A stretch of DNA of 64,000 nucleotides from assembly GCA_029706075.1 (NCBI GenBank), contig JAINUG010000052.1:3995498-4059497 (forward strand). Direction: 5' to 3'. Below, in pieces: positions 7,161 through 47,743 of the stretch (its first letter is position 1; each line of letters begins with the position of its first letter). This DNA is from Aldrovandia affinis (Eukaryota; Chordata; Actinopteri; Notacanthiformes; Halosauridae). Made by a program: the position numbers and the translations under genes. Under the pieces are notes generated by a model. It had not been told where the DNA came from. It worked only from the letters and a program-made list of their open reading frames with translations, and did not search any database.

Positions 7161-7472
7161 TATGTCAAGAAGGGCTGACATGGGTGAAGCCCGCTATTTA
7201 TTTAGAATCAGTTAAGTTATTTTATTTCCGCGATACTTTCGCTTTTGACAGGTCGACGTCAAAGCTGCACAGACCCTGTTATGACACCTTGAATAGCCAG
7301 TCGGACACTACACACCATCATAAAGTGGAGTTTAGCTTTCTTTATTTAGGCTAGCTATCTTTTACCTTTATTAACCCTGTTTCCAAACCCAATGGTTGTA
7401 ATTATTGAACTATATGAAAACTAATTCAATAAGAATCAAAAAAATAATTATACCTATTTTTTAATTTTGTTT

Positions 7473-7661
7473 AGGCATTTAGCAGACACTCTTGTCCAGA
7501 GCGACTTACAGTTTACATTTCTTTACATACAATCCATTTATACAGCTGGATATTTTACTGAAGCAATTCAGGTTAAGTACCTTGCTCAAGGGTACAACAG
7601 CAGTGCCCCACCTGGGAATTGAACCTGCAACCTCTGAGTTGCAAGCCCAGCTCCCTAACAT
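7473..7661 (-). repeat. V-SINE-like SINE, reverse orientation
   Basis: Read on the minus strand, the element has a tRNA-like promoter segment with a B box (GCAGGTTCAATTCCCAGG). It is followed by GGGGCACTGCTGTTGTACCC and TTGAGCAAGGTACTTAACC, a central block resembling the conserved domain of V-SINEs. It ends in an L2-type tail (GTCGCTCTGGACAAGAGTG). RNA polymerase III transcription and mobilisation by a partner LINE are family knowledge. The head is slightly truncated at its junction with the next element. Confidence 0.7.
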
Positions 7662-7720
7662 TTTTACATTTACATTTTAAGCATTTAGCAGACGCTCTTA
7701 TCCAGAGCGACTTACAAGAT
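7662..7720 (-). repeat. L2-type LINE/SINE 3' tail, reverse
   Basis: On the minus strand it reads GTCGCTCTGGATAAGAGCG followed by TCTGCTAAATGC and TAAATGTAAATG-type repeats. This is the canonical stem-loop with a GGATA loop and short 3' repeats. It abuts the head of the V-SINE-like element, suggesting a heavily 5'-truncated L2 or SINE insertion there. Confidence 0.75.
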
Positions 7721-7724
7721 GTAA

Positions 7725-8020
7725 CCAAATTCGATTCCAGCATACCAACATTCTGTAATGTATACAAATGTTTTAATTTTGAGTATTTTCCTGATCGATC
7801 TTCTGCTTTGCTGAAATAATCAAAGACCTTTTGCTACCGCGCCAAAATACGCTGCCAATTCAAGTGCATAGAAGCCGTGGAAACACTGTAGCCTACGCTC
7901 GTTCTCGAGTTTTGATGCTTAGCAACGCCCTCCCGGAAGAATAAAGAAAACATAGCCTACTGGCTATGATTATGATGCAAAAGCTTGCTGGTCACGTAGC
8001 GCTTTGTTTTCTGGTCAGGC
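7725..8020. other. non-coding sequence upstream of a CpG-rich patch
   Basis: No coding feature is recognised. CpG density rises from about 7830 onward. A GCTTAGCAACG string near 7919 resembles an RFX half-site, but this was not tested. Confidence 0.3.
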
Positions 8021-8029
8021 ACAGGAAAC

Positions 8030-8310
8030 TATGATGCTGTGTTTGCGAGTGCAGTTATTGACGTGGTATCGCGTGCCCCGCCGTTTCACGGACCCCGGTT
8101 TGAGCGGCGCGTCCCTACAGCGTGGGTCAGGGACCATCGTGAGAAGGCAGGTTCCAGCTGCTGAGAAGATGTGGGTGCCGCAGCAGTAACAGGAACCAGA
8201 GCGCGCCGTAATCGCTCCCACATTCCTGAGGCTTCGGCCGGGACACCATTGCAGGAAGCCCGAGGATGTCGGCGCCACTTTCATTTCGGGCAGACGCGTT
8301 CCGTCTCACA
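8030..8310. promoter_or_regulatory. CpG-rich patch, candidate CpG island
   Basis: I count about 27 CpG dinucleotides in roughly 290 bases. Examples are GAGCGGCGCGTCC near 8102 and AGAGCGCGCCGTAATCGC near 8199. The flanking DNA is AT-rich and CpG-poor. Such density usually marks an unmethylated promoter, first exon or enhancer in fish. Open frames through it on both strands lack recognisable domains, so no gene is assigned. Confidence 0.4.
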
Positions 8311-8782
8311 CAATCCGTTGCTCATTTTTTTTTCTGTCTCTATCCTACATGTATTGTCAGTCACTCTGTGCTATGTGTCCAATTGACCCACCAACCCACT
8401 TCTTTCCTGGACATTGGGTCCCGTTAATCACGTAACGATCTATTGATTTTCATTATGGATGGTGTAAGTGAACTACAAAGGCTGCAATGAGTAGGAGACG
8501 CATTCACCTGTTCCATGGCAGGCCATGCTATATGCTAAAGGCGTAGCCTATAGATTATTTGTCGAAACTCATGTGTGATCTAGCCTACAACCAGGAATAT
8601 ATTTACCTAAGAAACCATGTCAAATTAAATAGTTAAATATTTTAATGTTACAAGAACGCGACACAACATACGACTGTGATTTTTCAGTCATTACCCCATC
8701 ACAGGTATAAAACCCTGATACAGGCTACCCATATCACAGTCATATACCCTACCCGATCACAGGTATAAAACCCCTCTCACAC

Positions 8783-8783
8783 G

Positions 8784-8840
<57 letters not shown>
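8783..8840. repeat. (CT)n(CA)n microsatellite
   Basis: A CT dinucleotide run passes directly into a CA run. Just upstream, the 18-mer ATCACAGGTATAAAACCC is present twice, at 8698-8715 and 8756-8773. Confidence 0.95.
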
Positions 8841-8845
<5 letters not shown>

Positions 8846-9369
8846 AGCAATACAAAGACTAAACCCAGTGCTCCAAATTTCCTAACCAAGCACGTAAATG
8901 TGCAAATGGCACGTAAATGTGCAACATGGCCTTTTAACCTTCGCTCAAGCGCTAAATACACAGGAGACCTGACCTTTGACTCGTGTTGATTATTTTAGCA
9001 GTGTTTTACATACATGAATGCAGCGTACCCTTTTGGTACGTATAATATTTTCAAATGATGTCTGTAATAGCTTCATACATTTAGTGTTTTGCTTTTCAAG
9101 TTTGAATTGTTTTTGGCGGTCCGAAGGAGGGGGTGTGACTATTTGCACAATATTTTTTTTCTCCCATCCCGCTCTCTCCCTGTCCTCTGGGGCCTCTGCA
9201 TTTTGAGTTTAGAAACAGAACTACTGGATGGAAATGGGATTTACTATTTTATTGCAAATCTTAGATCAGTGAGAGATTGCAAGAGAAATGAAACGGGAAT
9301 CTAGGTGAAGACATAAATCTATAAAAATATAAGCGTTGCATTAAAACATTCTCCAGCTGCGATACTTAA
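8841..9369. other. non-coding sequence, no gene recognised
   Basis: Short open frames only. Nothing is recognised on either strand. Confidence 0.4.
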
Positions 9370-9850
9370 TTTTATTATCCCACTTGACGTCTTCGAGTCC
9401 GCGAGTAGGTTTACCGCTTAAATAGAGAATACTTGTCCGAAGCGTTAGAAGTCCTCGCGATTAGAGCCGTGACTGTGGGCGGCGGTGTTGCAAATCTGGA
9501 TGTGGTTTTCTCACGCCTCCCGTTCGCGTGTAATGGTGGTTTTGTAGCTGCCGTGATGAGGGGCTGATCCCGAGAATGCCGTGAGAGCGGCAATGACCAT
9601 AAACCAACTCCAGAGGGAAAAAGCACCGAGAATTAGGCTGCCCGACCGCCGCAGCGGGGTAGCTCTGATATTTCCAATAAAATTCACCTGCAGAATCAAA
9701 GGATTGACCACTTGAAACCTCCCAAACAAACAAGGAGACCAATTTAGCCGTCGTAAATCCAACGAGCGGCTATTGGCATTGCCAGTGAAGTGTTAAAGCA
9801 TTTTTAAATCTGTTTGCGTGAGCGCTACCTGCGGTTGGTGTGAGAAAAAC
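9370..9850. promoter_or_regulatory. second CpG-rich patch, candidate regulatory or first-exon region
   Basis: About 29 CpGs fall in roughly 400 bases, including CCGACCGCCGCAGCGG near 9641, and there is a TTGACGTC CRE-like site at 9383-9390. A minus-strand frame at 9511-9762 contains a hydrophobic stretch (LILGAFSLWSWFMVIAAL) that could pass for a signal or membrane segment. The protein resembles no family I know, so I leave it uncalled. The patch lies only about 1 kb from the first CpG-rich patch. Confidence 0.35.
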
Positions 9851-11649
9851 TGCAGACACGACTTCGTGTGCAGTTCGGCTATTTTCTGTAAGGGGTTTAT
9901 ATGTTAATTTTAGCAGGCTGTTTTAGTTTTTTCATTGGATTCTCTTGATATTTTTAATTTACAACACTTTTCAAGTCACGCAGTAGAAGCAGAACTGCAT
10001 CTGTTTAATGTGCAGCTCGCACGTAGATCTGCCCACAAACAAGCCACGTGCACTTACACTTAACACTGGAAAACATGCGCTAACTCTGACAGGGAAACAG
10101 GCGATGCTGTTTGTTTATTTCCCTGTAACAACATGAAGATATGCAGACATGCATGTTGCCAATATTGGGTCTAAGAAAGGAAATGACCTAGCCAGGTTAA
10201 CCCCAAACTATTGCCAGTATTGTTTACTTTCCTATGTTGGGTAGCCTACAAAATGACATTAGACGTTAGAAAAATGAATGAATGAATTAAAAAATTAATT
10301 AACAAATACACACACTTTCACATCCAGTGTTCGCAATTATTTCGAATGTCACGAATATGGGTGGAATGTACACATATGGAGGCAAATGCACCTAAACATA
10401 TTATGTTTTAGTTTGTTTAGTTTTTCTTTCAAAAGTAGTTATATTAAGAAACAATTTTAGAGAAAAAAGTACTTACTGTATATGACCCAAAAGAAGAGGA
10501 GGGAGGGGAGTAAATACATCAATATTTCAATAAATAAATAACAAAAATAAATCAAATAACAATTAATTTACAGACACAAGCACTTATTTTATGTATGACC
10601 ATTTACACATTTTGTATACAGGAAAATAAAAATAAATAAGGATTCTCACACATTCAAATGCACCTACAAGCACTCACATCTGCACCTGTCTTGTTTTTTT
10701 GTTTCCTATTTAGCATATCTAATTTTTACATATGTTAATATTCCTGGGAGAGAAGAAAAAACACACTCACACTCTCTAAGCATGCGCAAACACACTCAGA
10801 CTCACATGCACTCATGCACCCGAACTGAAATACTTCTGTTCCTAATGTATGTCCTTTAGTTAAATCAACCTCTCTTCTTAATTCATATGTGTTTCCTTTT
10901 TGTAAACTTGCATGGTGCTGAATACACCTGTACAACTGTTTGTCACACTTCAAGGTTCAAAGTAATTCAAGCTTCAAAGTAATTCATTAGAGATTTCAAA
11001 AGACTGCAGAAACATAATTGCTATTCTTATACATTCCTCTCTATATGCCTTTAAATATCTAAACCACATGCAGAGTGCATCATATAGCTAGGGTTATGCT
11101 TAGCCTGGGGCTTCATTAAAATGTTCAGCTTCTCCAAACTGTACTATTCCAAATCCCACAGCCCCAATGGCCTGCTATTTCACCATGTATAACTTGTAGC
11201 ACTTTGCCACTAAATTTAGTTTCATTCACAACTTGGAGCAGATCCCATCACAAATGAGTAAATCTAAATTCTGTCAAAAACAGAATCAAAATCAAAATGA
11301 TCTTTTCCCAAGCAGTTAACCTACTGACCAAGTTAACCTGCTGATGATCGATTCTATATTTTTGGACAGGTCTTTTTCTGAGTTCGACATTCTTCCCCAG
11401 CGGCCAATACTATTTTTGACTCCACTTTTTAAAAATGAAAAGATATATGCATCCTATCAAAAGTAAAATACATTGTCTATAAAATACTGCATGCATTTTG
11501 CAATCAACGCATTCTGGGTAATGGAGAAGGATAGGAGCTTTGAGGGACTCTGATGGGGGTCAATGATAAGATATGGCACAAAGCAATATTCCTTTACAGT
11601 GTGTCTGCAAGGTGTGATGTTGCAATGCACAATCACATGCATGCATGTA
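9851..11649. other. AT-rich non-coding sequence
   Basis: No gene or complete repeat is recognised. The stretch 10260-10700 is very AT-rich with repeated AATAAATAA strings. Confidence 0.4.
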
Positions 11650-27183: not shown

Positions 27184-27402
27184 TCAAATGTCATGTATTT
27201 GTCCTTTCCCCAGTAGATATGGGATTTGATCATTTAAAAAAAGCAGTAGCGGGCCGTGCATTTCACACCTAGTTCGGTTTGCTAGTTTCGGGGTTGGCTG
27301 ACCTTTCCTCACGATGTCCAGCTTTTCTTGAAAAGTCTGTCTTGAAAATGGCTTTGTAAGTATATCTGCGACCAAATCAATTTCTTCTCCTCTGTCAGCC
27401 AT
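27184..27402 (-). pseudogene. Ty1/copia-like polyprotein C-terminal remnant
   Basis: The minus-strand frame includes DLVADILTKPFSRQTFQEKL. This matches the ADILTKPL...F..L block at the end of the RNase H domain in copia-type polyproteins (family knowledge). Nothing upstream in the frame is recognisable, so this is a short relic. An 18-bp sequence at its start recurs about 140 bp away. Moderate confidence rests on one motif only. Confidence 0.4.
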
Positions 27403-27550
27403 TGTGGGTTGAAAAAACAGCTATTAAATCTACACAAATATATTTTAGCTTGTGCAGATCGCTACAGATGCAGTTTGCTAGCTATGACTCACGATGTACG
27501 CTCTCTGACCATCCAATCAAATGACGTGAAAATGTCAGCCATTGTGGGTT

Positions 27551-29610
27551 ACTGTACGCCTGCTAGATGGCCCCGGTGTTGCCAACTCGAAATCTGATTG
27601 GTTAAAGCAACAGTTTCATTGCCATTTATTTTAAGCTACAGGTGCCCGCACTGTTCATTCTGAAGGCCTCAAGGCAGATTTCTTTGACCCTGGCAACACA
27701 TGATGGCTGAAATATGATTGGATAAAAGCTCTAACATAAACATACACTACTGGAAGCAGCGCAACCAAGAGAAAAGCTATGAAATGAAGAGAATAGACTA
27801 TTGGGAATAATTTAATACATATTCATGGAAAAATATATTAAAACGTAAGTCAGTGATTCTGATAGTGTTTAGGCCAGCAGAGAAGGCCTTCCTGGCCCTG
27901 ATGGCCCACCACTGAAAAAAAGACATAATGTATAAAACATTTTAGATTTGAGTAACAACCTCTGCAATAACTGTGCTATATAATGACTGTTTCAGATCTC
28001 CCTTATCGCCACAGTAGCCAATCAGCGTAGCTTCCATTCATTCTGTTCTACTCATGCAACAAGGGTCACAAACAAGATATAAAGGGAAAGAAACTCCTTG
28101 ATACAACATGTCCATTGTGAGAAACCAGCTGCAATGAGACTTCTGTAAGATTATTCCAGTCAAAATGTATCACCACTCAGTCAGCAGGTTTCATTCAGGT
28201 CCAGCAACCACATTTCTGCCATTATTTGGTGGCAGAAACTGACTGTGAGCAAACAGGCCAAGAAAGAAACACCCTTTTCAGTCCACACCTCTCTTTTAAT
28301 GTTGGTGAACTCAAGGAAGGTCCCTTCCCCTTTCCCAGACCCCCCCTCCCCCGACAATGTGAGGTCAGGATTGCGGGGGAATGTTTTACGCCACCAGAAC
28401 TGAGCCCACCTAGGTGTGCAGTGCCATGATGTCATCCTCCCTCTGGGGAAATCAACTTCACGTGGGCCCAGAAGGGGGGGGGGAATAGAAATCAAGCTTA
28501 TCCTCACTCTGGACGGCAGCTTTGGAAGACACCAGCGAACACGTCACCTTAGGAACCGGAGAGGCGGCCCGGAAACATAGCGCTCACCAGGGTAGCCGCA
28601 GAACTGGATTCACATTAATCTGCACGGCAGGGATGGAAACTGGGCCCTGTATTGGGGTCACACTTCAATGCGAGACAGATACTCCTTCTATCAACTGACA
28701 GGTATGGTGCGTGTCAGGCTTTTACAGACGTGGACGGTTCCTCTATTGGCTCAAATCTCCCTTTTTCACAGTCATTGATCCAGGTACGGTCTGTAACTCA
28801 TTGTGTCTAGGTAATACAAAGCACACCAAAGGTCTTTTTACGACATTCCCAGATGGACATCATCGCGATCAGAGCAGGCCCTCGGTCTCCAAACACCTCA
28901 AGGAGCTCTCCATGCATTCTCCCAGACCACCTGTGAATATGTTTGGCTGTTTCGAGATATAGCTGGAGTCTTTCTGCACATAAACGTTTGAGTTGTTGAT
29001 GCTAATTGCATTAGAGCTGGGGCCCGCTTTTCATTACAGACTGCCCTGCTATCTTTTAAATCTGTTTTGACAGATTAAAAGCTAGCTCTGTTTATTAATT
29101 TAAAAAGATTTAAAACTGGGTGAGTGTGAAGGTTTGAGCAATGAAGGGCTGTAGTGCTGGTAGATGACGTACTGCACGGGTCTTCAAGAGAAAAAAACAT
29201 GGAGAAAATGTTTGGTAGCTTGGTAACTGTCTCTCGGGTGTTTTATTTTCTTTCTCCTTAACTGCTGGATGAGGTCAACATTGCAATTGTTGATCAACCA
29301 GCTCATCCAATGTTTTTTTTTTCATTCACCCTTTTTTCTCCCACAAATTTGAATACCTAATCATAATTATACACAGTGGTTGAATTTAAAAAAATGTTAC
29401 GAATAAAAAAAATCAGCTTTTTTTGCTTTGAGTTCAAGCTTGGTGAACTTCGGCCTGCAAATTCTTGCGACTCACTGCTGCTACCCCAAACCCAGAAGTG
29501 GGTGGGATTTACTGACCCAACATGAAAATAACATCACATCCATGACCGCCCATTTTTTGCCACACAAAGTGAAGAATCTTTGCCTGAATAATCCTGGTGT
29601 GAAGGCCACA
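27551..29610. other. non-coding sequence, no gene recognised
   Basis: No recognised repeats or domains. Open frames near 28181-28507 and 28711-28962 have no motif. Confidence 0.4.
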
Positions 29611-30587: not shown

Positions 30588-30745
30588 GTGGTTCTCTGTG
30601 GCTCAGTTGGTAGAGCACAGCGTTGGCAACGCTTAGGTTGTGGGTTCAATTCCACTGGGGCCACATATCCTGAAAATGTATGCATTCACTACTGTAAGTC
30701 ATTTTGGATAAAAGCGTCTGCTAAATGGCGTATATTACTACAATT
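30588..30745 (+). repeat. tRNA-derived SINE with an L2-type tail
   Basis: The head is close to a tRNA: A box TGGCTCAGTTGGTAGAGCA, B box GGTTCAATTCC, about 55 bp apart. A short linker is followed by an L2-type tail (GTCATTTTGGATAAAAGCG, TCTGCTAAATGG). The arrangement matches SINEs mobilised by L2 LINEs, such as UnaSINE1 of eel. It is not a functional tRNA because the 3' acceptor strand is replaced by the linker and tail. A truncated sibling lies at 47060-47152. Confidence 0.85.
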
Positions 30746-41209: not shown

Positions 41210-44200
41210 CAGTGGTGTATAGTAACAAAGTAGAAATACTTTGTTACTGTACTTAAGTCGTTTTGGGTATCTGTACTTTACTTTACTATTTCTATTTCTG
41301 ACGACTTTCACTTTTACTTCTCTACATTTTCCAAAGAAAACTGATACTTTTACTCCGATACATTTCCCATAAGCATCTTCGTTACTCGTTACTACAACAA
41401 AATAAAATCGGAAGACATTTGGTAGCCAATGATTTTGAAACACAACTGCAAGAAGTTAGATCATTGGTTAATCACATTAATGTGCAAGTGCAAACAGGTG
41501 CCCTCAAAGCCGCAGTTAAAATTCGAATTTCATTCAAGTCCAGACATGTCGACAGACTAGTACGTGAATCATTGGGGAAGAAGACTTCATGATGGAGATT
41601 GATTTGGAAATGGCACTGGTTACTCCGGCAGCAACAAACGACTGTGTAGAAGATGAACACCCTTGGCCATATTTGCAAGAAATGTTTTCTTATCTTGGAG
41701 TAAAAGATTTGTCCTACCGAATGAAGTGCCGCTTATGCCTACTGAAAACGACGGAGATATTGGTATTCAAGAACTCCCTGTCCAACCTCAAGAAACACAT
41801 TGAGGTAAATTAAGATTAATCCCGTGAGCTAATGTTTAGTTACTTATCATCATTAGCATAGCCTGTTCAGAGCAGTTCCCACAGGAATATCGCCACCACC
41901 ACCGACTGCTGGTCGTCAGAAGGCGGAGCTTCATTGGTGTTACTGCCCATTGGATTGACCCTGACAGTCTCCAAAGATGCTCAGCAGCCCTAGCCTGTGA
42001 ACAGCTGAGAGGTTCACACACATTTGATGTGTTGGCAAGCGCCCTGAATGACATCCATTCCAAGTTCGAAATTTGGGGGAAGATTGTAAGAACAACAACA
42101 GACAATGGTTTTTGGTGAAGATGAGAACAATGCAGTCGGAAGTGATGGTGATGCATCTCAACCACAAAAGGATGGAGAGGATCAAGAGGATCAAGACGAG
42201 GCTGAAGAAGTGGAGTTTGTTGATGTGTCAGCTCTTCTGAATGAAGATGATGGTTTGGAGTTTGAGCTCCCAAAGCACCAGCGCTGTGCTTGTCACCTAC
42301 TCAACCTAATAGCTACGGTTGATGCCATGAAAGCAACATCCAGTGAGGCATACAAGAAAGTGTACCGTTCAACATTTGGCAAGTGTAATGCACTTTGGAA
42401 CAAATGTGGAAGATCCACACTTGCAGCCGAAACTGTTGAAGATGTGTGCTCCCTCCAGCTCTTGCGCCCGAATGCTACCAGGTGGAACTCCTTGTTCCTG
42501 GCAGTGGAAAGACTGCTGAGGATCATCAAAGACAAGGGAGAGGGGGCCATCAGAGTCATCTGCACAGACTAGAAGGTTCCAATGTAAGTAGGAATTATGG
42601 TTTTATTATTTCATAATTGATGAACTGTCTGTGCTTCCCCACCCTTTCTTGGGCACTAATAACTGTTTCACAGTTGTATCCCAACTTCCACTTTTCATTG
42701 GTCCATTTAGTTAAAGCTGCATGAGATAATTTTGGGAAATGTTTAACTTTGGCGCCACCTCTGGTTGTGATAAAAAAAACTGCACTGCATTGAAGTGATG
42801 GTGTACTATCCAGTACACCAACATTATAAAACAATAAATTCACAGGGTTTCATGCGGTCTCATGTCACGAAAAATATTTTTTGGGTCTTGCCAAGGCCAA
42901 TTCATAATAGCAAAAGCATAATAGCAAAAAAATGTGAATATTTAACTATAAAAAAGTTATCTCATGCAGCTTTAATTGCTCATCCAGCAATTTTTTTGTT
43001 GAATTCGATGAAATGGTTATATAGTGTTATAAAACGATGTTGTTTTTGTTTTCATCACAGGTTCAATCCAGCTGAACTCGCATTCCTCAGAGTATGGCGA
43101 TGCCATGAGCCCAGTCGCCCAGGCAACCAACATCTTGCAAGTAGAAGCAAATGTCCAGATGGGGTGGCTACTTCCAACAATCAACCTGCTGACCGCCAAA
43201 CTTGACAGAGTCAAGTTGCGACTGAAATACTGCAGACCTCTGGTGGATGCCCTACAGGTATATTGTATTATATCTCATTCCTTGCACAATGTTTGTTTAT
43301 TGTTTACTGTCATGCACCAATGTACCAAAACAAATTCCTAGTAGGTGGAAGCCTACATGGCCATAAAATCATTTGTGATTTCTGATACAGGTGGGAATAA
43401 AGAATCGGTTTGGGCACATGACAGGTGATCGCAGCTGCGATTCTTCTTCCAAAGTTCCGAACATCTTGGACAAAGGATGATGCCACAATCAGAATGGGCA
43501 AGACAACATGGGGATAATGAAAAAGAAGTGTATGGGTGTACATTTTGACACTTTGTAATATTGCCAAATTCACAAATCGATTATGGATGCATGAAATTAA
43601 ATGTATACACCTCAAATTAAAACAAACTATTTAGTACAAAACCTTAGTTTGGGGTCATGAGATGTTAGAAAGTTGTATTAATCCTATCTTTTATATTTTT
43701 ATCACCCCATCCTCACTATATTTCAGGGGTGGACTACATCAAGCAACACATGGAAGCACCCTCCCTGCAGATAGGTGATGCCACCAGTTCATCTGACGAA
43801 GAAGACCAGTTCTTCTCTGCCCTGCAGGCCCCTCAAGCACAAGACGGCTCCAAAGAACTGGACGGATACCTGGCCATTTCAGCAGATCATATGGACTCAC
43901 TGAAGTCCTTTCCAGCTGTGTGCAAGCTGTCTGTGAAGCTGAACACACCTCTACCTGCCTCAGCAGCCTGTGAAAGGCTATTTAGCATCGCAGGACTTGT
44001 CTTCAGCCCAAGAAGATTGAGACTGCATTCACGTAATTTTGAGAACCAACTTCTGTTGAAGATGAACAGCAAATTTTATAGTTTCAAGTAATGACTGGGT
44101 TATTACTTTCAGTGCTGCTTCAGTCATGTTTTGATTTTGTGTAATTTTGTGGATGATTATGTTATGATGTGGTAGTACTCAAGTACTGAGCACTTTATTT

Positions 44201-44704
44201 TAATTTTGTTTTATGACTGGGATATTCTGTCCCAGGGCTATGGATGTACAACATGCATAACGGGTTCTGCCCTGACTTTACAGGCTACATAAGACCACTG
44301 GACCGGATTGGTCAAGAGAAAGCAGGTTGTACACACACCAGGGAAAGAGGGAGGGATGGACGAATGAAGGAGTGGGAGGGAAGGAGTTCTTGTTGTGTAG
44401 ACCTTGTTATGTAGACCAGAGGCTACACGAATAAAGACTAAACAATGATAAAAAACGCTTTTTTATTAACAGCATTTTTACGTGGGATTTTTACTTGTAC
44501 TTTTACTTTCGATACTTACAGTAAGTACATTTATATTACATACTTTTACTTTTGATACTTAAGTACAGTAAACCCCAGATACTTTAAGACTTTTACTCAA
44601 GTAAATATTCCAATAGGTAACTTTCACTTTTACCAGAGTCATTTTCCAGTAAGGCATCTTTACTTTTACTTAAGTATGGCTTTTGGGTACTTTATACACC
44701 ACTG
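41210..44704 (+). mobile_element. hAT superfamily transposon, Tol2-like, about 3.5 kb
   Basis: Ends CAGTGGTGTATA and TATACACCACTG form terminal inverted repeats. Subterminal DNA is full of ACTTTTACTT and ACTTAAGTA strings, as in Tol2-like elements. The eight bases TGTGTGAG occur on both sides (41202-41209 and 44705-44712), the expected hAT duplication length, although the host array itself contains such strings. It carries a multi-exon transposase on the plus strand and an AATAAA near 44431. The length suggests a formerly autonomous copy, now decayed. Confidence 0.92.
41589..44091 (+). pseudogene. hAT transposase, multi-exon, inactivated
   Basis: Exons inferred from reading frame and splice signals: 41589-41804 (BED-finger-like WPYLQEMFSYL, then MKCRLCLLK and LKKHIE; donor GTAAAT); 41871-42583 (TTTDCW, IGVTAHWID, TTTDNG with a catalytic-type Asp, then HQRCACHLLNL and ATRWNSLFLAVERL; donor GTAAGT); 43061-43257 (MSPVAQATNILQVEANVQMG; donor GTATAT); from 43391 (GIKNRFGHMTGD), end unclear; and 43727-44091 (LPASAACERLFSIAG, FENQLLLKMN, the hAT dimerisation region). 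Lesions include frameshifts near 41920 and after TTTDNG, a TAG before 42573, and a frameshift in the exon from 43391. In life the protein would cut out the element by hairpin-forming DDE chemistry (family knowledge). Confidence 0.85.
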
Positions 44705-44932
44705 TGTGTGAGTAAGAGTGAGTGACTGAGAGTGTATGAATGAGTGAGAGAGTGTGAGTGTGTGAGAATGAGTGTGTGTGTGTGTGTCAGAGTGTGAGTG
44801 TGTGAGTGTAAGTGTGAGTGTGTGAGAATGTGAGTGTAAGTATGAGTGTGTGAATGTGAGTGTAAGTGTAAGTGTGAGAATGACTGTGAGTGTGAGAATA
44901 TGAGTGCAAGTGTGAGTGTGAGAGTGTGAGAA
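44705..44932. repeat. GTGAG/GTGTGAG-rich minisatellite, right part
   Basis: Same imperfect units as at 40980-41209. Together the two halves make about 450 bp of array. The bracket TCCCTTTGTGGGAA occurs at 40965-40978 and again at 44938-44951. Confidence 0.9.
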
Positions 44933-44951
44933 AAAAGTCCCTTTGTGGGAA

Positions 44952-45829
44952 GAAAATTTAATTCTGAAACGATCTTGGACATGGCAACTGAGTTTGGATT
45001 CTGTTCGGGTACTTTGTTCTGGAAAACAGTGATACTAAAAAAGTGCACTAATCCTCTGAATGGAGGTAATTTTAGGCCTTTTTTTTTGTAACCGTGACCA
45101 CCCAACTTCTGCTCAGTCTGGTGAAATAAATTCTCCCTTGTTTTCCTCACCCTTGTGTTTATATTCATTTGTTTTATTGATCACCACTTAAAGATGTGGC
45201 TTTGTTACAAATGGCTCTATGAAATGAAAAGCAGTATAGAGCAATCTTTGTTCTCCTGCTCTTATAGTGCTCTTACCCACTTTATCATAGAAGTGCATAC
45301 AAGTACTGTGTCATAGCAGACCCATATGCTTGGTCTTTCCACAGCAGAAGGAATTATTCTTAAAATCTATCTGGGGTTTTTTTTTCAATGAAGGCCTTTT
45401 TTAATGTGCACTTTGAGTGTCTGCCAGGCCATCATTTTTTTTAAGCCAGCAAGGTTTTCTCCCTTATTATTCCCACAAAGAAATTTCAAGAAATTCCAGC
45501 CACATCATAAAAAAAGACAGAAAGAAATAATGAAAATCATTTTTAAAAAAGGGGTTGAAAAAAGATCTTTCAACATCCTGCCCCCCCCAAGGAAATGTGC
45601 ATCGATGATGCCAAGGAGGCAGTGGGAGAACCACTCTTGCAGGGCTGAAATGGATGGACTCTTTCTCCTGCTCTTGACACAGCCCTTGTCCACACAAAGT
45701 GGGAGAGAGCTAGTGCTTCACTCTTGAGAAATTAAATGGCAAGACTTCTCAGGAAGCCATTCATCTTTCTCCCTCACACTCCATAACGCTTGATCTCCAA
45801 ATACCAACTCTTTAAAAGGTTGTAGTGTA
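44952..45829. other. non-coding sequence, no gene recognised
   Basis: Short open frames only. No repeat family was recognised. Confidence 0.4.
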
Positions 45830-46520
45830 GGGACATTTTATGAGACATGTACCGTACGACATTGTAGTGAAATGGATTTGATTAATTATCGCTTCCATAT
45901 TAAGAGGTCAATCGTACCACCTTGAACCTCCGCTTTTCTCTGAAGCGATTTGGGGAACATGATCAGGACAAACAATACAATTGACATTAAGTAAGTACAG
46001 ACAACATATGCCGTGGACATTGTGTTTGCCCCGTCCCTGTAACAGCCATATAGGAGTCGAAGGGCTTAACCTCTAGACCCACATCACAGACAACTAATTC
46101 CATGGCGAGCCTGGTACCCCGAGATTTCAAGACTTAAAGCATTCACTGCCTGACTACAGTACAGCTACTGGGGACATTCTAAGTCTAATCGAAGTTCAGT
46201 GGCACCAGAACTTCGCTGCCGGCATATGCAGCTACTCGACATTATAAGTTCTACAAGGTAGTGTTATCGGGACTCGGAGCACTCGCTGTCTGTATACAGA
46301 ACAGCTACTCGACATTCCAAGTCCCGCCACCCTAGATACGATGCAGGACTGACTTGACAGCGCAGAGGGACTGAGCCGTACAGTCCGTGCGGCCTCGCTC
46401 CCGGCGTGTTACAACCTTCCCTTTCTAGCGCTAAAAGGGGAAGAAGAAGACATAGGTTGAAACGATGATTTGCACACTTATTTCAACCTTAGCAAAATGT
46501 CACAAAACCGACATTACACA
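45830..46520. other. structured, GACATT-rich tract with tandem hairpins; possible non-coding RNA or retroelement leader
   Basis: The hexamer GACATT occurs eight times on the plus strand (starts 45832, 45858, 45983, 46016, 46173, 46238, 46311, 46510), far more than chance. Three consecutive hairpins at 46130-46186, 46207-46252 and 46269-46325 share CAGCTACT(C)GACATT but close with different stems. Two further hairpins lie at 46368-46386 (GGACTG/CAGTCC) and 46454-46489 (AGGTTGAAA/TTTCAACCT). No open frame crosses the tract. A minus-strand TATA box at 46636-46646 could drive transcription across it. Function and family are unknown. Confidence 0.5.
46130..46325. repeat. three tandem hairpin repeats with compensatory stems
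   Basis: Unit 1 closes with AGACTTA/TAAGTCT, unit 2 with AGAACTT/AAGTTCT, and unit 3 with GGGACTCGG/CCAAGTCCC (one mismatch). Each encloses a second stem of the CTG/CAG type: CTG-ACTA-CAG in unit 1, GCTGC/GCAGC in unit 2, and GCTGT/ACAGC with an inner CTG-TATA-CAG in unit 3. Each is followed by TACT(C)GACATT. Stem sequence changes while pairing is kept, suggesting the structure matters. Confidence 0.65.
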
Positions 46521-46735
46521 ATACATAACAGAAAACATACAAGACAAGGCAGTATAACAGATTCCTCAAACATAGAAAACTAGAACGCAGAGCGCTCGTT
46601 AAGCGAATGAACTCCCCGAGCTGGATTTGGATATTCCTTTTATATACCTCTGACCAACCTTAAACAGTACCCCAGCTGTTGGTTATTTTGACAAAAGACT
46701 GTTGTTTGCCTGACGGGCCAGATTGCGGGTTTACA
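46407..46735 (-). mobile_element. LTR-like segment with TATA box
   Basis: On the minus strand it starts TGTAAACCC and ends GGTTGTAACA, so it has TG...CA ends. It contains TATATAAAAGG at 46646-46636. The hairpin tract would be the adjoining leader. Against this reading: no primer-binding site starting TGG follows the end, no flanking duplication is seen, and I find no second copy in the window. Pol II promoter activity is inferred only from the TATA motif. Confidence 0.3.
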
Positions 46736-46739
46736 AGGC

Positions 46740-47059
46740 TAGCGGAATGGTGAGTGCCCCCACTCTGAGGGAACGATTGCGTCAGGTGTTATATGACTGT
46801 CCCAATCTTCCTGTTGGTAGTCATAAAGCTATTGTCGGTGGCCAGAAATCGTGTTATTCCAGCCAACCGTGGGGAAATTGGTTCCCAGGATGTTACCAGA
46901 TCCCTGGCTTATCGGAGTGGGGGATATGGCATGTCCCAGGAAAACACAAACAATTTCTAACTTCTGAACAGTTGCAAAACCCTTAATGGACATGACATGA
47001 CGCAGGGGAAAAGATACAGTAATTCTGCTCACTAGAACCTATTACATATGTACAGTGTA
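46740..47059. other. non-coding sequence, no gene recognised
   Basis: Nothing is recognised. Confidence 0.35.
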
Positions 47060-47152
47060 TAATAATATACGCCATTTAGCAGACGCTTTTATCCAAAGCG
47101 ACTTACAGTAGTGCCTGTATACATTTTCAGTATATGTGGCCCCAGTGTATCA
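47060..47152 (-). repeat. 5'-truncated SINE with L2-type tail, reverse
   Basis: On the minus strand it reads GGGGCCACATATACTGAAAA, then GTCGCTTTGGATAAAAGCG and TCTGCTAAATGGCGTATATT. This aligns to the 3' part of the SINE at 30588-30745 from its B-box end onward. The tRNA-like promoter is missing. Confidence 0.85.
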
Positions 47153-47743
47153 CACATACAGTCCCAAAACCTGTGATGGGGGGGTTTCACTCCCAGGTCA
47201 ACCATTTGTTGGATGCAGGGAATGGACAGGGCAGGCTGCAATCATGTTTATGGTGGCAATTTCCCCGTCCCCCCTTTTAACCAATGATGGGTTCACCAGA
47301 TAACAGAACTCAGTGCAGGGAGGGAGAGGGGCTGGCTATTAAAATCATAGAGCCAGCTCTTTCCAACCCTACAGTAGTAACAGGTTTTCACCAATACCGA
47401 GAACAGTAAGTAAGCTAAAGGTAAACTAATGGTATAGTCAATTTATACTTACTGTATGGAGACTTCATTGTTAGGTAATTGCTCACAGTTGGAGGAATAC
47501 TTTCGAGACAAGCCAAACAATCTGCAAAATTGTGACTAGAAATGTTTTTAGTTCCTCCTTGAAAATATACAGTGCCATCAATGTATTGAAATACACAGTA
47601 AATGCAACAGTAAAGATACTTCTCTATTCAATATGGATTGGATGTTATACAAAAATAACAATCATACAATAGACTGCAATTATTTAAGAAAAACAATAAT
47701 TGCAGATAATAATAGTTTTACTGATAATGCATCTTAATTATTT
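47153..47743. other. non-coding sequence, no gene recognised
   Basis: AT-rich towards the 3' side. Nothing is recognised. Confidence 0.35.

Follow-up and report, generated by a model that had tools for sequence, protein, structure and literature searches.

The 64-kb stretch of fish DNA analyzed here (hereafter, the window) hosts three neighboring units, each closed by complementary arms: A (46125-46190), B (46203-46255), and C (46265-46328). They correspond to the three tandem hairpins that a preliminary description of this DNA had placed at 46130..46325. On the minus strand, the units run 5' to 3' in the order C (46328-46265), B (46255-46203), and A (46190-46125). Elsewhere, the window contains five UnaL2 LINE tails, one tRNA-Ala, reverse-transcriptase-like ORFs, a Tc1-like transposase, and a hAT-like element, with the LINE and hAT labels being our reading of the sequence.

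Hairpin C (46265..46328, minus strand) has an 11-bp outer stem (46316-46326 / 46268-46278) with one G-U pair, a GCUGU/ACAGC inner stem, and a small palindromic tip (CUGUAUACAG). The outer stem of hairpin B (46203..46255, minus strand; 46246-46253 / 46206-46213) spans 8 bp, including one G-U pair, and this unit has a shorter 3' side and an ambiguous inner stem. Hairpin A (46125..46190, minus strand) combines an outer stem (46178-46188 / 46128-46138) that carries one U-U mismatch and G-U pairs with an inner stem of the form GCUG(U)/(G)CAGU. Folding z-scores on the minus and plus strands, respectively, were -4.15 and -3.82 for C, with 0 of 200 shuffles equally stable on the minus strand, -2.21 and -1.71 for B, and -1.24 and -0.43 for A. 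The folding energy of the block is thus only modestly unusual, being strong for C, moderate for B, and not unusual for A. Folding of 46120-46330 on both strands against shuffles, which had been proposed as a check, likewise yielded MFE z-scores of -2.19 (plus) and -2.37 (minus), only modestly better than the shuffled sequences. For comparison, 100-base windows across 44901-47175 averaged -0.33 (plus) and -0.41 (minus), and the best such value within the hairpin block was -3.17, with lower values found elsewhere (e.g., -3.93 at 45251-45350 on the plus strand).

On the alignment, units A, B, and C are diverged copies of one hairpin unit. A and C align over 55 bases with 76% identity (E 6e-5, using lenient scoring against the 64-kb window), and alignment against the window found no second copy of the hairpin block. 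Common to the units on the minus strand are AAUGUC, then GAGUA-GCUG, and then a CAG[CU]GA[AG] side; unit A deviates by a 2-base insertion and by CAGUA in place of GAGUA, and in unit B the 3' side of the internal loop is shorter by eight columns. The sequence CAGCTACTCGACATT stands unaltered in B and C, and the rest of the window has 0 matches to it at up to 3 mismatches, as compared with a mean of 1.35 expected from shuffles; this match count is ordinary by itself, and it is the exactness in B and C that is unusual. In the same region, unit A differs by the 2-base insertion and one change, so that the motif reported as shared by all three units is exact in two of them and looser than claimed.

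A screen for hairpin pairs (7-bp closing stem, loop of 25-52 bases, at most 2 G-U pairs, and related loops within 250 bases) covered 1,511 hairpins on the plus strand and 1,610 on the minus strand, and the pairs had to pass filters for complexity and shared 6-mers. The top loop similarity on both strands was that between A and C (score 22), and the B-C loops scored 17, a value exceeded by an unrelated minus-strand pair with 18, namely neighboring hairpins with related loops at 27380-27569 that were the runner-up to A-C on that strand. In addition, a covariance model (R1) built from these three units scored C at 91, A at 77.5, and B at 51.3 bits. Its high scores were limited to the three training units, all on the minus strand, and the next best was a plus-strand echo of C (14.9 bits). 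A possible, very diverged fourth unit is weakly indicated at 45961..46035 (minus strand), where R1 gave 8.8 bits (E 0.12, with filters off, over 2.2 kb) and the folding z-score of 45957-46040 was -0.49. A 9-bp perfect inverted repeat, AGGTTGAAA/TTTCAACCT, at 46454..46489 (no strand assigned) lies in the same presumed leader and shows no sign of descent from the unit.

The hexamer GACATT was found on the plus strand 8 times within 45800-46620 (at 45832, 45858, 45983, 46016, 46173, 46238, 46311, and 46510), as against 24 times in the other 63 kb of the window; five of these eight sites lie outside the three units, and the reverse complement occurs once in the same interval, at 46496. Such a concentration would suit a DNA-level binding array, in which the same-orientation GACATT sites and the palindromes serve as transposase or transcription-factor sites of a mobile element or promoter. 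However, the remaining three sites belong to the duplicated units, the flanking arms of such sites need not pair, the G-U bias described below would be left unexplained, and we found no long terminal inverted repeats around the hairpin block. We consider a DNA-binding array quite improbable.

Given the kinship of the units, their pairing can be compared column by column. The RNAalifold consensus on the minus strand comprises 19 pairs (-12.65 kcal/mol), 11 of them in the outer stem and 8 in the inner stem, versus 14 pairs (-9.82 kcal/mol) on the plus strand. In the MAFFT alignment, the 11 outer pairs divide into 4 that are invariant, 3 with a one-sided change, and 4 in which both sides changed with pairing kept; each of these last reflects a change in one unit, and one of them is also U-U in A. 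Among the outer-stem cells that hold letters, 96.4% are paired, with B gapped at 5 of the 11 positions in this alignment. Over all consensus cells, the paired proportion is 94%, and it drops to 27-47% when the partners are slid by 1-3 columns, a contrast that is inflated because the structure was derived from the same sequences. Letter shuffles (n = 500) reached the observed number of double changes 7 times, the covariation score 7 times, the percentage paired 4 times, and the number of pair types 189 times. The RNAalifold covariation term is unfavorable on both strands (+1.22 kcal/mol on the minus strand and +0.45 kcal/mol on the plus strand), and the plus-strand consensus likewise contains 4 pairs with both sides changed. 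Covariation among the three units is real but moderate.

The preliminary description had gone further, stating that nearly every stem position differs between units while complementarity is kept. The apparent difference at nearly every position proved to be an artefact of unaligned arms, since outer stems set in register by hand have ACU/AGU common to all three units and 4 of the 11 outer pairs do not vary. The preserved complementarity is borne out by the four pairs changed on both sides, and with three one-sided and four invariant pairs beside them, the covariation had been overstated. A second CTG/CAG-type stem, described for every unit, is predicted on the minus strand for A (probability 0.66) and C (1.0), whereas isolated B prefers a different inner stem on that strand (probability 0.99); on the plus strand, it is formed by B and not by A. 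When the linker is included in the folding of B, the 3' arm of B pairs preferentially further downstream, and the lowest-energy fold (-18.8 kcal/mol) contains the rival pairing CGAAGUUC/GAACUUCG (46190..46215, minus strand), a competitor for the 3' arm of hairpin B. These predicted folds suggest that unit B is either a copy that has degenerated or an element with two states.

Of the two strands, the predicted structures favor the minus strand as RNA. Its consensus cells comprise 41 Watson-Crick, 6 G-U, 1 A-C, 2 other, and 7 gapped positions, whereas the plus-strand consensus is shorter and weaker, with 1 G-U cell and 2 A-C or C-A cells; the G-U count is tilted toward the minus strand by the fact that the structure counted was derived there. 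The window contains, on either strand, a single match to the TATA-type core promoter TATATAAAAGG, located at 46636..46646 on the minus strand. About 500 bases downstream of it, an ATG at 46103 in a good Kozak context (CTCGCCATGG) opens a 38-codon ORF (45987..46103, minus strand). Taken together, the minus-strand G-U bias, the sole TATATAAAAGG, and the Kozak ATG point to a putative minus-strand transcript with a leader of ~500 bases. Since this presumed leader holds ten other ATGs upstream of 46103, the ATG at that position need not be used. The stop-to-stop ORF 45987-46133 has no Pfam match, and ten short ORFs around the hairpins gave three sub-cut-off Pfam matches and nothing more.

The hairpins and the promoter match lie in a CpG-dense block that extends from 45787 to about 47001, with an observed/expected ratio of up to 0.93 versus a window average of 0.44. 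To its left CpG is almost lacking (0 to 1 per 200 bases in 45101-45700), and seven 500-base bins elsewhere in the window have CpG ratios at or above that of the best bin in the hairpin surroundings. Its composition suggests a more recent insertion or else a promoter island. The latter would fit a host gene with a CpG-rich promoter and a structured 5' leader or lncRNA exon, whose hairpins act in cis (e.g., on translation of the ORF at 46103), and the TATA match, the CpG-dense block around the presumed start, and the Kozak ATG are all consistent with such an arrangement. However, no convincing cellular domain was detected in 147 minus-strand ORFs (at least 55 aa, below 46200), and the ten upstream ATGs also argue against it, so that a host-gene leader appears unlikely. 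Pfam at E 0.01 identified DDE_3, HTH_SB, SP24, and IBR_1 in one of those ORFs each, and the IBR_1 match probably comes from a cysteine-rich ORF (43356-43580) that we read as antisense inside the hAT-like element. A separate exon was also considered, but no gene model supported by splice-donor scores, computed with approximate weights, was convincing.

Another possibility is that the block has no function, that is, an imperfect palindrome was duplicated in tandem and drifted, perhaps with template-switch repair restoring DNA complementarity without any RNA. We simulated drift with no pairing constraint, the target being as many intact pairs as A (10 of 11) and B (8 of 8) retain; for B, the register was set by hand (UAGAACUU/AAGUUCUG) and differs from the MAFFT register. 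Starting from C, the target was reached for A and B with frequencies of 0.006 and 0.005 at a transition share of 0.5, 0.020 and 0.013 at 0.67, 0.052 and 0.031 at 0.8, 0.106 and 0.060 at 0.9, and 0.205 and 0.111 at 1.0. Outer-stem changes against C are transitions in 14 of 15 cases, and at such shares drift succeeds with 0.06-0.20, in keeping with a non-functional origin, as are the partly shared stem and the modest folding z-scores. When drift starts from A, however, the pairing of C is reached with only ~0.002 or less at every transition share tried. DNA repair would moreover leave Watson-Crick pairs, yet 6 G-U cells stand against 1 A-C on one strand, and the loop side AAUGUC...AGUAGCUG is better conserved than the arms.

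The choice of transition share therefore bears on how these frequencies are read. In the non-stem columns, 8 of 17 changes are transitions (three unit pairs summed). Between A and C, the ratio of transitions to transversions is 10:1 in stem columns and 2:5 outside the stems, and tolerance of G-U intermediates would be expected to give this excess within the stem. G-U-mediated pairing would itself raise the share inside the stem, so that neither figure is decisive for the drift comparison. The earlier statement that duplication and drift alone can hardly account for the pattern was thus too strong, given that the units are duplicates, the stem is partly shared, and drift reaches ~0.005 to 0.20 depending on the transition share. 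On balance, we regard drift of a non-functional palindrome as somewhat unlikely.

We also assessed whether the block belongs to a retroelement. A candidate solo LTR or other insertion spans 45826..47373 (minus strand), with TGTAGGG...CCCTACA ends (seven complementary bases) and a flanking GTAG duplication; seven TG...CA pairs of such quality, 700-3500 bases apart, occur in the 64-kb window, this one among them. The interval includes a foreign UnaL2-type LINE/SINE tail (47066-47119). The HML LTR end motif TGTNGGGRAARG and its partner CCCNRCA are tabulated in PMC3601003, and the ends at 45826 and 47373 match the first seven letters of that motif and its partner, with the letters beyond differing. 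The same paper describes AATAAA as well conserved across the retroviruses and Metaviridae it covers, and a TATA motif in HML LTRs as serving both as promoter and in polyadenylation (PMC3601003). At the present locus, a match to the TATA-type core promoter expected of an LTR is found at 46646-46636, and neither AATAAA nor ATTAAA occurs on the minus strand in 45800-47400. Among the polyadenylation variants tried, CATAAA lies at 45842, below the TATA box and inside 45826-47373. When sites starting with TG in 46001-46650 were compared with 17 tRNA ends, the best candidate primer-binding site matched at 11 of 18 bases, and no retroviral Pfam domain was detected in the 147 minus-strand ORFs. The solo-LTR reading of 45826-47373 is suggestive. 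The proposal of a retroelement leader in the preliminary description finds agreement in the TATA match, the CpG-dense block, and the LTR-like ends, and none in polyadenylation signal, primer site, or retroviral domains.

Searches for known families agreed with the earlier statement that no known family is recognizable. Rfam 15 at the gathering cut-off gave 6 matches in the window, none within 46120-46330, and a permissive Rfam search of 45900-46700 gave five matches (E 2.2 to 8.4), all under their own gathering scores. A microRNA precursor cluster was rejected, since large internal loops break the stems and the two miRNA families in the permissive search were at chance level (E 6.7 and 7.6). 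A tRNA-like reading of the plus strand, on which C ends in ...CCCGCCA, was likewise discarded, as ARAGORN placed its single tRNA elsewhere (30591-30664) and A and B have no CCA. Phage DNA searched at distant sensitivity yielded a 32-base match in five Dickeya phage records, which is chance level (E 0.8). The exact 15-mer AATGTCGAGTAGCTG occurred in 23 stretches of viral contigs, where the covariance model reached at best 12.4 bits (E 1.1), again chance; a longer motif pattern had 0 matches in viral contigs and 0 in genome contigs. The few literature terms tried, which make for weak evidence, brought up no report of such a tandem hairpin array among the titles and abstract openings listed. If confirmed, the array would vary a known type rather than found a new one.

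Retroviral packaging-signal leaders consist of several stem-loops within a structured 5' leader between promoter and ATG, with palindromic tips. They differ from the present locus in that no gag domain or primer site was detected here. The internal loop also bears what we take to be a likeness to the bulged-G (loop E / sarcin-ricin) motif, with AGUA opposite GAA beside the closing pair in A and B, and opposite GAG in C. This likeness is at the sequence level, the third purine varies, and the preferred fold of B is without the closing stem.

Retroviral RNAs are known places for structured elements such as RxRE, RcRE, and CTE, as set out in PMC7551171 and PMC6916052. The HTLV-1 RxRE (bound to Rex) and the HERV-K RcRE (bound to Rec) are RNA elements within an LTR, like the candidate setting here, and according to PMC6916052, LTRs of HERV-K contain the RcRE, and solo LTRs number more than 900. 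The block analyzed here differs from them in comprising three related tandem modules, with no detectable genes and no Rev/Rex/Rec-like protein seen, the sequence comparison having been made via Rfam. Repeated sites would suit cooperative binding. The MPMV CTE and the MLV gamma-CTE are stem-loops that recruit a cellular export receptor (PMC7551171), and it is as stem-loops that they resemble our units. As described there, the MPMV-type constitutive transport element is one long stem-loop with two internal loops, whereas the present units are separate hairpins, and the conserved AAGACA of the MLV gamma-CTE is missing from the conserved loop of the units (PMC7551171).

A conserved loop carried three times on variable paired stems resembles a protein-binding RNA array. 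The reading to which we tentatively incline, at well under even confidence, is a tandem-duplicated protein-binding hairpin in a retroelement-derived leader or LTR; duplication with drift and a host promoter or leader share most of the weight left over. More specifically, the minus strand from ~46615 to 46104 would be transcribed, now or formerly, from the TATA promoter at 46646, and the transcript would carry one hairpin module three times in tandem, as C, B, and A from 5' to 3'. In each module, a variable closing stem would lie below an internal loop that is asymmetric and conserved (5' side, AAUGUC-GAGUA; 3' side, GAR), itself above a GCUG/CAG stem. Tandem duplication is the most likely origin of the module, the array may well have been a multivalent protein-binding platform comparable with retroviral RNA export or packaging elements, and the promoter and leader most likely derive from a decayed LTR retroelement.

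Support for a protein-binding hairpin array comes from the common fold, the four compensated outer pairs, the minus-strand G-U bias, TATATAAAAGG, the Kozak ATG, the CpG block, and the LTR-like ends. Counted against it are the small set of only three related sequences, drift frequencies of 0.1-0.2 if nearly all changes are transitions, as in the stem, the modest z-scores, the competing B folds, the unfavorable covariation term, and the failure to find AATAAA/ATTAAA, a primer site, or a retroviral domain. The repeated RNA structure proposed earlier stays the best reading, with the common fold, the four compensated pairs, and the G-U strand bias behind it, and is partly supported overall. At this one locus, the hairpin structure is moderately supported, and a function in protein binding, export, or packaging is what we infer from it. 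It is doubtful, in our estimation, that the block represents a so far undescribed structured RNA repeat, in which a covarying closing stem and a conserved asymmetric loop, arranged in tandem in a fish retroelement leader/LTR or a co-opted host transcript, form a multivalent protein-binding site. If other copies keep the pairing, the block would provide a natural example of a structured RNA module repeated in tandem within a vertebrate retroelement, beyond the well-studied mammalian retroviruses, and would offer a direct route to the protein reading the module. If other copies lose the pairing, it would serve as a warning that tandem palindrome copies can mimic covariation.

Several further features of the window were recorded. 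An UnaL2 tail at 30681-30734 comes after the tRNA-Ala-like gene (anticodon GGC), and the whole segment, 30591-30734 (plus strand), resembles a SINE with a tRNA head and a LINE-type tail. The hAT-like element, labeled as such from our reading of its sequence, occupies 41210-44704, has interrupted reading frames, and is embedded in a simple repeat of the GTGAGTGT type. All five of the window's most CpG-rich 500-base bins fall within 7751-10000, and two UnaL2 tails, 7469-7522 and 7675-7728, are about 200 bases apart.
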